From assembly GCA_031292555.1 (NCBI GenBank), contig JARLGV010000115.1:1-40410 (forward strand): a stretch of 40,410 nt of DNA. The letters run 5' to 3'. Within the stretch, counting starts at the first letter, position 1. The number at the start of each line of letters is the position of its first letter. Source of the stretch: Fimbriimonas sp. (GTDB lineage: Bacteria; Armatimonadota; Fimbriimonadia; Fimbriimonadales; Fimbriimonadaceae). Below are positions 5,472-9,075 of this stretch, in pieces. Position numbers and translations under genes: made by a program. Below the pieces are notes generated by a model. That model saw only the letters and a list, made by a program, of their open reading frames with translations. It had not been told where the DNA came from and searched no databases.

Positions 5472-5936
5472 ATGCCAGGTTCAACGAAAGTACATCTGCT
5501 CTCCGATTCTTTCTGGCATTTCATCAAGATAGGCTACATCCCTCCCTACCTTCCCGAGGCCCATGACCAGAACAGGGTTCTCATGGAAGCTCTCGCCAGC
5601 GTAGCAGACATCTACTCGCGAGGTGGCTACTTTGTTATCATCGATGGAATCGTGGGACCGTGGTTTCCGGATGTCTTCATGGCAATTCGGTCGCCAATTC
5701 ACTACATCGTTCTCCTACCTCCCGTGGAGATTGCCATCAAAGGGTGTCAGGAGCGTGGCGGGTCTGAGCTTTCCGACGCTGAACCTATCTCCGATTTGCA
5801 CCGTCAATTCTCGGCAACCGGTTCACTGGAGCGGCACGTTATCCAGATTAAGTCGAACACTCCCGACGAAGTCATCCTTGAAATTGTTCGAGCAATTCAG
5901 TCAAACGCGTACTTGCTTGAGCCCGCAAACGCATGA
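5472..5936 (+). CDS. P-loop kinase-like (AAA/zeta-type) protein lacking its P-loop, probably degenerate
   Basis: The 154 residues match the body of small P-loop kinases of the chloramphenicol-phosphotransferase/zeta type: KVHLLSDSFWHFI, GYIPPYLPEAHDQNR, GGYFVIIDGIVGPWF, then a strand and helix with RGGSEL and a C-terminal helix. In this family a Walker A loop (GxxGxGKS/T) precedes the 'KVHLxSDxFW' segment by about 20 residues. Here the frame is closed by TAA at 5442-5444, and the only residues before M are LPATTALSS, where the sequence looks like the end of a P-loop that has lost its Gly-Lys. The remaining protein should not bind ATP normally. It is either a pseudogene or a protein with a changed role. 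The nominal start at 5472 has no ribosome site. Confidence 0.6.
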   Translation: MPGSTKVHLLSDSFWHFIKIGYIPPYLPEAHDQNRVLMEALASVADIYSRGGYFVIIDGIVGPWFPDVFMAIRSPIHYIVLLPPVEIAIKGCQERGGSELSDAEPISDLHRQFSATGSLERHVIQIKSNTPDEVILEIVRAIQSNAYLLEPANA

Positions 5937-6033: not shown

Positions 6034-7545
6034 TCAAAGTGGCGGAACGGCCTTCACTCCTTCCGCCACTCTCCACGGATGCGGCGCGCCATCGTTGCGA
6101 GGAACTAACGTATAGGCCACTCCCGGAGCGAGTTTGGATCCGGCGTCATCGAAGTTCATCGCAAAGCCACGGACCGTGGAGTTATTGCAGTTCAGGCCGT
6201 TGTAGTGAATCCCGACGTCGGAATGGCCAGGCGACCGAAGGATGAAATGCGGATCGGCCCCGGCAATGAACTCGCGCAACTGCATGTAGTTTCGGTTGGC
6301 GATCCATTCCTTGATCTCGAGAAAGAGATCGGTCTTGGGAAGTTGACTGTCATCGGGAATCAGTTCGCGGTAGTCCGCAGTTCCGGGCCAAAGCACGCCA
6401 ATGACGGTCGCGGATGTGAGTTCGCTTGGAGCCCGGTCTTCTCGTACCGCGTACTTACCCCAATGGTCCTTTGCCGCGATGAGTTGATAGGGGTTGATCG
6501 AGCTTAGCCTGACCTGGACCTTTGGCCATCGTTCCGTACGCAGGCCCCAAGTCTCTGCAAGGTGCGTCTCGGATATGTCGGCGCAGGTGTCGATGTGGGT
6601 CATAAGCCCGAGGTAGTTGCCGTCGACGATTTCTTGATCGAGGTCGCTGTAGTTGAGCCGGCGCCACCGTCCATCGATCCAGACCTCGTCGAACATGTGA
6701 TTGGCGAATCCAGTCGCTCCCTGCACTCCGTCGATGATCGTCTGGCGAGTAGCCCGCCGAGAGATGCTAGAAGCCAGGATTTTTACCTGCGTAGGATCGT
6801 TGGCATCGCATGGAGGGATGAAGTACAGGATCCGCGTCGGGATGCCAAGGGCGCGAAGAATGGTGGCGATGTAGATCGAACTCGACGTACAGGCTCCGTG
6901 GCACCGCCTCTCGAACATTTGGCGACCAAAGAGCTGATGGTTGAATACATCCCTGTCCTTCCACTTGGCATCCGATTTCGATTGCTCGAAGGCGTTTCGC
7001 GTCGGCGCAAACACATGCGGCCCGGTGCCGTCGAACGCCACGTACCAATCGGAGGGCATGGCACTGGAATTGCCCGCGAACGAACTCGTTTGAAAAGCCC
7101 ATCTCGCCACCGCCTTCACGAGATCGGCCGGCTTGAGTTCACCCGGCCGGATACCGGCCTTGCTCAAGTCGCCGATCAGCTTGTTCCGCATTTGCGGATT
7201 CCAGTTGCAGGTGACTGACGGTCGAAGATAGCGGTCGAGATCCCCTGGCTTAGTGGCATAGGCCCGATTACGCATCGCTCGCACCCGATCGTTCAGTGGG
7301 AAATAGGTGATGCTGAGCGTTAGGCACCCATGATCGTCGGACAGAACCTTCACATCCTGGTATGGATCCGTCATCGCGGCGGGCTCACACGGACGAAGGA
7401 TCTTTACGACCGTTGTGATCGTGTATGTGTTCTCAACCCCGAGCCCATGGGCCGAGAGCGACGGGTCCGCTACCGACCTTGATCCGGGTCTCTGCGGAAC
7501 GATTGTAAGGGCGGTTACCATCAGGAGAACTTGTGCGCCGATCAT
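6034..7545 (-). CDS. exported transglutaminase-like (papain-fold) protein
   Basis: The 503-residue product has an N-terminal hydrophobic segment (MIGAQVLLMVTALTIV) consistent with export. A transglutaminase-like core spans about residues 205-305: CHGACTSSSIYIATILRALG places the nucleophile at Cys219, then IPTRILYF. ANHMFDEVWIDGRW supplies His283, and the Asp is near residue 301 (NYSDLD). This is the complete Cys-His-Asp triad in the usual order. The first ~190 residues are a beta-rich domain as in other bacterial transglutaminase-like proteins. Its ATG overlaps the stop of the upstream ArsR-like gene by four bases (ATGA, 7542-7545), so the two are translated together. It could be a peptidase, amidase or cross-linker; the substrate is unknown. 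Confidence 0.85.
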   Translation of the reverse strand: MIGAQVLLMVTALTIVPQRPGSRSVADPSLSAHGLGVENTYTITTVVKILRPCEPAAMTDPYQDVKVLSDDHGCLTLSITYFPLNDRVRAMRNRAYATKPGDLDRYLRPSVTCNWNPQMRNKLIGDLSKAGIRPGELKPADLVKAVARWAFQTSSFAGNSSAMPSDWYVAFDGTGPHVFAPTRNAFEQSKSDAKWKDRDVFNHQLFGRQMFERRCHGACTSSSIYIATILRALGIPTRILYFIPPCDANDPTQVKILASSISRRATRQTIIDGVQGATGFANHMFDEVWIDGRWRRLNYSDLDQEIVDGNYLGLMTHIDTCADISETHLAETWGLRTERWPKVQVRLSSINPYQLIAAKDHWGKYAVREDRAPSELTSATVIGVLWPGTADYRELIPDDSQLPKTDLFLEIKEWIANRNYMQLREFIAGADPHFILRSPGHSDVGIHYNGLNCNNSTVRGFAMNFDDAGSKLAPGVAYTLVPRNDGAPHPWRVAEGVKAVPPL

Positions 7546-8000
7546 CTCTCGTCACCTCTGGTTAGCGACGTGTGGGCGTTCCAAGCGAGGCCGAGAGCGG
7601 CGACATAGATTCTCCCGAACTTCATATCGATAGAATATTTGTCCCCCTTCTTGTCCGCTACATATCCTGCCCTCTGAAGCTCTTTCAAGTGATGGTATGC
7701 CTGCCCCGTCGTCCGCATTCCGAGGATTTCGGTCAGTTGAACGACCGACTTGGGACTGACAATCAGCTCGCGCAAGATTGCGAGCCGGACCTCATTTCCG
7801 AGCACTCCAAGGAGACTGGCTACCTGGTGGCATGGAATCGCGAAGAGGTCGCTTACTTCGTCGCCCCCCAAGATGCTCCAACTACAACTTGGCCGTCCAT
7901 CGACCTCGAGAATCTCGAAGTGCCCGACGAGCCGTTCCCCGTCCGATGTGGCGTTCTTAAGGATCTCGACGATGCCGTCTGCGCTTTCTTGCTGCGTCAT
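7542..8000 (-). CDS. ArsR-like winged-helix transcriptional regulator
   Basis: The C-terminal half of this 152-residue protein is a winged helix: LLGVLGNEVRLAILRELIVS, then SVVQLTEILGM, the recognition helix TTGQAYHHLKELQRAGYV, and a wing with KKGDKYSID. The N-terminal ~65 residues (about 1-65) are an extra domain not needed for DNA binding and may sense a signal; no metal-binding Cys cluster stands out. It is the first gene of a two-gene operon with the transglutaminase-like gene (four-base overlap). ATG 8000 lies six bases after TATCAT, and that -10 box is inside one arm of a 38-bp palindrome, which strongly suggests autoregulation by steric block. Confidence 0.88.
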   Translation of the reverse strand: MTQQESADGIVEILKNATSDGERLVGHFEILEVDGRPSCSWSILGGDEVSDLFAIPCHQVASLLGVLGNEVRLAILRELIVSPKSVVQLTEILGMRTTGQAYHHLKELQRAGYVADKKGDKYSIDMKFGRIYVAALGLAWNAHTSLTRGDER

Positions 8001-8006
8001 GGCTAC

Positions 8007-8012
8007 ATGATA
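8007..8012 (-). promoter_or_regulatory. leaderless-type -10 box of the ArsR-like gene (TATCAT)
   Basis: On the minus strand TATCAT is followed by GTAGCC and ATG 8000. The box overlaps the near arm of the palindrome at 8010-8047, so a bound regulator would cover it. Confidence 0.55.
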
Positions 8013-8047
8013 TCACGGTTTTACGTCATTACGTAATTCCGTGATAT
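8010..8047. promoter_or_regulatory. 38-bp nested palindrome, probable operator of the ArsR-like regulator
   Basis: Outer arms ATATCACGG (8010-8018) and CCGTGATAT (8039-8047) are perfect inverse complements. Inner arms TTACGT (8021-8026) and ACGTAA (8031-8036) are also perfect, around CATT. Only the TT pairs between the arms do not match. It lies nine bases from ATG 8000 on one side and nine bases from an ATG at 8057 on the other, and covers the regulator's -10. Dimeric or double-dimer binding by the ArsR-like protein is the simplest reading. Confidence 0.7.
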
Positions 8048-8056
8048 TGACTGAGC

Positions 8057-8233
8057 ATGCGTCGTTACGACCTCGCCGATCCCGACGGTCCTGTCGGACC
8101 TAACCATGAAATGACTTGCTTCAAGCAAGGGCGCCATGGACTACTAAAGCCAGAACAGAGGGATCAAATCTTCCGTTCATCGGGGGTAAGAGACAGGCTA
8201 ATGTATCTGGTCTTGCTCGACCGAAGTGATTGA
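8057..8233 (+). CDS. possible small protein (58 aa) divergent from the ArsR-like gene
   Basis: An ATG lies nine bases beyond the palindrome and opens a 58-codon frame: MRRYDLADPDGPVGPNHE, then KQGRHGLLKPEQRDQIF, ending MYLVLLDRSD and TGA. The placement mirrors the regulator's own start, as expected if the operator controls both directions. I recognise no family. The opening MRRYDL recalls some IS5-type transposase starts, but the similarity stops there. A -10 is weak (TATTGA six bases before the ATG). It could equally be chance. Confidence 0.3.
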   Translation: MRRYDLADPDGPVGPNHEMTCFKQGRHGLLKPEQRDQIFRSSGVRDRLMYLVLLDRSD

Positions 8234-8412
8234 GAATTCCCCGCGAGAATCGCCAATCGTCATCTATTTGACCCGGGCCCTCATTTAGACTTGGCACTTT
8301 CCATGCATTAGGTATGGTGGCGCTACCCATATGATCTCGCATGGTTGATCCGGTGATTTTGCATGTATGTAGGTCCGCCAACTGAGTGATCGTACGGGGG
8401 GAGGAGGCTTTG

Positions 8413-9075
8413 ATGAAACTTAGGAGAGTTCTGACCGCCGGCTGTGCGGCCACTCTGGCATTGGTATCTGCTATTTCGCTTGCCGACACGAGTACGGCCG
8501 TCGGTTCGAAGGTTAAGGGGCCTGTCAACACTGACGGCACTAAGGTCGTTGTTGTCAGCGCAGCGGAGTTCAACAGTATCAAGACAGTGATGTCGGGGTC
8601 AAGTCCCTACGGCGGTTCTTGGCTGGAGACCTTTGGTGGAGTCGTGGCCGAACCGCACGCCATCAAGCCATGCGCTCTATTCGGCGCACTGTTACAGCGC
8701 GACCGTGTGACGGTCTCGACCGCGAGCGATAGGAACGATACGGAAGACAACACAATCGTCGGCGTTCCGATCGACATGGGCTTCCTTCGGGAACACTGGG
8801 CAGTCGCTCACGAAGTCATCAGTCTGTTCGGCGCCGGAAGGCTTGGCTGGACTTTTGGGGTCACGATCGGCACATTGGGCAGCCTGCAGTCGAAAAACAA
8901 CGACACTTCCACGGCGACCGATTACTTCCTCGGACTCACTTACTTCATCAACCCGTCGATGACCCTTGCGGCCGGAGCCGTCACTAACGGCAACGACGGT
9001 ATGGCAAAGTCCCATCTCGGCCTCTCGATCTCGATTGATCTGACCGCTATTGGCAAGTTCTTCGGCGGCAAATAG
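8413..9075 (+). CDS. exported beta-rich hypothetical protein
   Basis: The 220-residue product has a clear signal peptide (MKLRRVLTAGCAATLALVSA, then ISLADTS). The mature part is rich in Gly, Thr and alternating hydrophobics, such as GWTFGVTIGTLGSLQSK, DYFLGLTYFIN and HLGLSISIDLTAIGKFFGGK. This pattern suggests an outer-membrane-type or secreted beta structure. I do not recognise the family. The start is fixed by a strong GGGGGAGGAGG ribosome site just before ATG 8413. It stands alone between a 5' region of ~180 bp with no clear gene and a strong hairpin at 9086-9112. Confidence 0.8.
   Translation: MKLRRVLTAGCAATLALVSAISLADTSTAVGSKVKGPVNTDGTKVVVVSAAEFNSIKTVMSGSSPYGGSWLETFGGVVAEPHAIKPCALFGALLQRDRVTVSTASDRNDTEDNTIVGVPIDMGFLREHWAVAHEVISLFGAGRLGWTFGVTIGTLGSLQSKNNDTSTATDYFLGLTYFINPSMTLAAGAVTNGNDGMAKSHLGLSISIDLTAIGKFFGGK

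Follow-up and report, generated by a model that had tools for sequence, protein, structure and literature searches.

A predicted private operator of an ArsR-type regulator coupled to an exported transglutaminase-like protein in Fimbriimonas sp.

A 38-bp palindrome in a Fimbriimonas sp. genome (positions 8010-8047) is predicted, with a probability of about 0.8, to be the private operator of an ArsR-type regulator that would act as the dedicated autorepressor of a two-gene operon, the second gene of which encodes an exported transglutaminase-like enzyme. The putative operator consists of ACG(T/G) half-sites arrayed at 8-bp spacing, a pattern that comparison of upstream regions shows to be conserved at regulator-operon promoters in several phyla. 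Positions refer to the window, the whole 40,410-nt stretch analysed here, which is an entire 40.4-kb contig of a 6.46-Mb genome. Its relevant features are:

6034-7545, minus strand: 503-aa transglutaminase-like protein with a hydrophobic N-terminus and an inferred Cys219/His283/Asp301 triad (Pfam, hydropathy, motif)
7542-7545, minus strand: ATGA stop/start overlap of the regulator and transglutaminase-like ORFs, translational coupling (direct reading)
7542-8000, minus strand: 152-aa winged-helix regulator of the ArsR type, extended by an N-terminal helix and beta-hairpin (Pfam, structure model, fold match)
8008-8013, minus strand: -10 element TATCAT, 6 bp before the ATG and overlapping the operator, a predicted leaderless promoter (family-wide -10 position)
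8010-8047, no strand: dyad-symmetric putative operator with four CG-centred half-sites at 8-bp spacing (direct reading, weight matrix, genome search)
8020-8037, no strand: second 18-bp dyad, overlapping the first and lying on the 38-bp axis, TTTACGTCATTACGTAAT (matrix score 22.3)
8028-8045, no strand: strongest 18-bp dyad in the operator, ATTACGTAATTCCGTGAT (matrix score 23.7, with the window and Armatimonadota left out of training)
8057-8233, plus strand: 58-aa divergent ORF, probably not a gene (no intact relative, codon score)

Direct reading of 8010-8047 gives ATATCACGGTTTTACGTCATTACGTAATTCCGTGATAT, with a symmetry centre at 8028.5 and 16 of 19 arm positions paired. The outer 9-mers (8010-8018 and 8039-8047) are perfect, the inner palindrome TTACGT/ACGTAA occupies 8021-8026 and 8031-8036, and nine bases separate the whole from the regulator ATG (8000, minus strand) and from an ATG at 8057 on the plus strand, as the initial annotation had described for both the nested arms and the distances. 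CG steps at 8016, 8024, 8032 and 8040 recur with a period of exactly 8 bp. This is the highest-scoring palindrome with 19-bp arms in the window, and an equal score arose in one of 20 simulated windows of the same length (first-order Markov), so palindromy by itself is weak evidence. The decisive evidence for the putative operator is its family-wide occurrence rather than its palindromy.

Supporting this, 86 family members from Actinomycetota, Bacillota, Deinococcota and Armatimonadota were compared. TACG/CGTA words stand exactly 8 bp apart in 52 of the 86 homologue upstream regions, against 0.36 expected and with no training involved, in loci that are not independent because the scan selected on a recognition-helix motif ([TS][TS]GQxYHHL[RK]) and many come from related actinomycetes. 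Among other short spacings of these words, enrichment is seen at 16 bp only. The promoter consensus of the regulator family operons, taken from a weight matrix built without the window and without its phylum, is ATTACGTAATTACGTAAT. In 64 loci the 130 bp upstream contain a matrix site, which in all 64 is the best of the roughly 8-kb locus; the distal background of such sites is 7e-4 per 150 bp. CG steps 8 bp apart also lie just upstream of both Armatimonadota homologues and of a homologue on a Kocuria plasmid. The combination of operator and regulator was seen in at least four bacterial phyla, and the search of other genomes that the initial annotation had proposed found the operator kept beside homologous regulators across phyla. 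Fifteen weak ArsR hits (L003 and L006-L019) were set aside as other ArsR-type proteins; 14 of them have no matrix site of 10 or above, and the sole locus to reach 10.0 (L010) has its site away from the promoter.

The location of the site follows the operon rather than the regulator gene. Rhodococcus and Actinomycetospora have a beta-lactamase-like gene first and the regulator second, and in 13 of 17 such loci the site lies at the start of the first gene, about 1.1 kb away, and not at the regulator, as expected for an operon operator. The Rhodococcus versions, TTATTCCGTAATTACGGAATAA, place the dyad centre at an AATT between two units. The independent matrix gives its top four scores in the window (21.4-23.7) all within the palindrome, with the next best at 11.1; likewise, all four matches in the window to TTACGTNATTACGTAA at up to three mismatches fall in the palindrome, where 0.2 would be expected. 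In the window array, two strong dyads overlap and a weaker unit is added on the outside, an arrangement that yields the overall symmetry. The array lies about 10 bp farther upstream than those of actinomycetes. A search of the 6.46-Mb genome found the window operator as the close match, with two further hits that equal the control number. When 12 genomes were searched at up to two mismatches, eight matched, with one site each and always at the genome's own regulator operon. By these searches, the predicted operator is practically unique in each genome examined, that is, private to the regulator operon.

The regulator matches HTH_20 (score 30.4, cut-off 27), HTH_5 (25.7, cut-off 22) and DUF7347 above the Pfam cut-offs. 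Its structure model (pLDDT 86.6) matches the CzrA/SmtB/CadC fold with Z of about 13 over 88-93 residues, mainly residues 47-152, and the HTH domain and fold together place it in the ArsR-type winged-helix superfamily. A classical metal sensor is unlikely, because the protein scores 34.5 bits against NCBIfam HTH_metalloreg, below the cut-off of 55, and no invariant or near-invariant cysteine is found across 56 aligned members; the invariant His103 and His104 sit in the recognition helix (98-110), and no metal ligands outside that helix are conserved. An NCBIfam AhpC match (E 0.001) was taken as chance. The alignment reveals a common architecture of an N-terminal helix or coiled coil, a short hairpin, the winged helix and a C-terminal helix, which, with the structure model, bears out the extra N-terminal element noted earlier. 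Invariant residues are W41 in the hairpin, R72, G99, Q100, Y102, H103 and H104, although the helix TTGQ.YHHL was in the search pattern and its invariance is partly by selection. The window protein has the G..(V/F)..G...W hairpin and the TTGQ.YHHL helix, and its locus carries the ACG(T/G) half-sites, spaced by 8 bp, at the promoter of the operon. Its family, made up of non-metal ArsR-type regulators extended at the N-terminus, is large. Some Paenibacillus members (L049:3866-4942, L071 and L072) are about 360 aa long and are regulator-ATPase fusions with a C-terminal HATPase_c domain (DNA gyrase B/HSP90-like ATPase), assigned by a domain match for L049 and by sequence similarity for the other two.

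The 503-aa protein carries Transglut_core at residues 208-297 (28.4 bits, cut-off 23), which places it in that superfamily. The candidate triad was placed by motif, the single-sequence model being unusable (pLDDT 31.5), and the signal peptide is weak, with no basic n-region. The four-base overlap with the regulator was confirmed as ATGA, and ATGA-type overlaps between regulator and partner recur in several relatives, including the Kocuria plasmid. Partner genes in the family encode M23 peptidases (39 loci), PF13354 beta-lactamase-like proteins (17) and PF00144 serine hydrolases (6). Most M23 partners carry N-terminal membrane segments, and the beta-lactamase-like first genes of Rhodococcus and Actinomycetospora have a lipoprotein signal sequence in the examples read. 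The 503-aa protein fits this exported-hydrolase theme. The initial annotation had named no described precedent for the pairing. A transglutaminase-like partner was seen only in the window locus, although exported-hydrolase partners are general in the family.

Solo regulators are found among the other loci and include both closest relatives (L025:3948-4471 and L026:3860-4408, both Armatimonadota), which keep the operator and have no exported hydrolase alongside; one of these two operators overlaps the end of a methyltransferase ORF lying upstream. On a Deinococcus taeanensis plasmid (L022:2986-6054), transposase genes lie between the regulator with its overlapping second gene and an M23 peptidase gene. 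In the window, a 154-aa ORF on the plus strand (5472-5936), convergent with the transglutaminase-like gene, has a coding-like codon score and no match in Pfam or NCBIfam.

Relatives of the window pair are scarce. No close relative of either protein was found in the other 112 genomes of the class. Across the phylum, clear regulator homologues occur in only two genomes (46-48% identity), and searches of 290 other Armatimonadota genomes, of plasmids and of viral contigs brought up no relative of the transglutaminase-like protein. Because of this scarcity in class and phylum, the pair looks acquired, or lost elsewhere. Beyond the phylum, the Kocuria plasmid homologue was found by plain tblastn, and 80 loci at 584 or above came from a profile scan that covered 84,980 species genomes. 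Single-sequence regulator scans of viral and genome contigs returned nothing, while an alignment query succeeded.

In 57 of 75 family loci, a gap of 6-7 bp separates a TANNNT hexamer from the start codon; in the window the gap is 6. A -10 element at this distance implies leaderless transcription, and the array overlaps the -10 itself in most relatives, so transcription from the predicted promoter would be both leaderless and self-occluding. The -10 had been placed inside a palindrome arm; the hexamer (8013-8008, minus strand) is backed by its family-wide position, but the arm takes in only four of the six bases, leaving two outside. Overlap of operator and -10 fits autorepression by occlusion, and we infer repression from the position of the sites. 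Regulator dimers would sit on the half-site array and cover the TATCAT, repressing the operon of regulator and exported enzyme. A signal that bypasses the metal sites of classical ArsR proteins would then release the repressor; the N-terminal beta-hairpin domain or the dimer interface might be what reads it. The enzyme's probable target is the cell envelope or an extracellular protein or peptide, judging from the M23 and beta-lactamase-like partners in relatives.

Other explanations of the locus are less probable. It is unlikely that regulator and operator are real and the transglutaminase-like gene is an incidental, functionally unlinked neighbour: the enzyme's absence from the rest of the phylum and the solo state of the regulator's closest relatives would agree with this, but the genes overlap by ATGA with no terminator found between them, their codon scores are equal, and relatives repeatedly pair the regulator with hydrolases, several through ATGA-type overlaps. 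The chances are somewhat lower still that the regulator activates its own operon or has a dual role instead of being a simple repressor. Counted from the start codon, the window sites have their centres at -28 and -36 and lie for the most part upstream of the -10, and ArsR-fold proteins can activate, for example HlyU, which is among the fold matches of the model; against this, the overlap of array and -10 in most relatives fits occlusion, and the outer arm overlaps the -10 in the window too. There is very little to recommend reading the palindrome as an RNA attenuator structure or as a product of chance. The perfect outer 9-bp arms and the frequency of palindromes this good, about one in 20 simulated windows, speak for such a reading; against it, the sequence itself is conserved ahead of regulator starts, its 8-bp spacing rigid, and the predicted leaderless transcription would place the palindrome outside the mRNA.

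The initial annotation had also suggested that both directions are controlled by the same protein. In such an arrangement, the regulator would control its own operon together with either the divergent 58-aa ORF or a longer transcript that reaches into 8386-9075, for which the equal 9-bp distance of the palindrome from both ATGs and a TGATAT in each arm could be cited. This is improbable. The ORF, proposed for a conservation check, has no intact relative in 113 genomes, its sole match being at chance level and interrupted by a stop, and its codon score (-0.012 bits per codon) lies below the 5th percentile of in-frame coding chunks (0.045); it is probably not a gene. The next gene on the plus strand (8386-9075, likely start 8413) encodes an exported-looking protein with no family match and has its own promoter-like site (8291-8318), a kind of site that itself occurs at chance frequency. 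In addition, the symmetric operators of relatives stand at the start of one operon. Two-way control is not needed for a symmetric operator, because the half-sites are palindromic and repeated.

Read as a one-operon autorepressor, the window system can be set beside several known ones. ArsR/SmtB repressors control autoregulated operons through a palindrome overlapping the promoter, and the metal sensors CzrA, SmtB and CadC share the winged-helix fold with a C-terminal dimer helix; the window regulator differs in its extra N-terminal helix and hairpin and in having no conserved cysteine or metal motif, and its operator differs in its ACGT units spaced 8 bp apart. In the SdpR/SdpI type, a small ArsR-type autorepressor is co-transcribed with an envelope protein. 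The window regulator scores 13.8 against the NCBIfam SdpR cut-off of 100, and its partner is hydrolase-like, whereas SdpI is a membrane immunity protein. BlaI/MecI are winged-helix repressors governing beta-lactamase or cell-wall enzyme genes, and some relatives of the window regulator likewise pair with beta-lactamase-like lipoproteins. However, Penicillinase_R is not among the window regulator's Pfam matches at E<=1, its operator is of the TTACGTAA type rather than the TACA/TGTA of BlaI/MecI, and no BlaR1-like receptor was noted. The actinomycete regulator-M23 operons (Kocuria plasmid; 39 loci) share the regulator family, operator and gene coupling, and differ in the M23 peptidase partner and an N-terminal coiled coil longer than that of the window protein. 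These pairs are annotated only as 'helix-turn-helix domain-containing protein' and M23 metallopeptidase.

Searches of open-access text for ACGTAATTACGT and for ArsR with M23 or transglutaminase returned no relevant paper, and a description elsewhere is possible; the main text of a paper on a Nocardia ArsR-type SdpR does not contain 'ACGTA' (PMC12185567). Within the open-access literature searched, the module appears undescribed. We tentatively propose, at somewhat less than even odds, an undescribed cross-phylum module in which a non-metal ArsR-type sensor with a hairpin domain, a rigid operator of 8-bp period and a leaderless promoter are combined with an exchangeable exported hydrolase (M23, beta-lactamase-like or transglutaminase-like). 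Such a module might respond to a product of the cell envelope and tune envelope processing.

A great many ArsR-type regulators have no assigned inducer. If the signal here is an envelope product, the family would constitute a wall-sensing switch, of which we found no description, in actinomycetes and other bacteria. An operator that can be read from sequence alone, in a family linked to envelope or exported hydrolases in different phyla, makes the family's targets predictable genome-wide, and the pairing of one site with one operon offers a simple handle for finding the signal.
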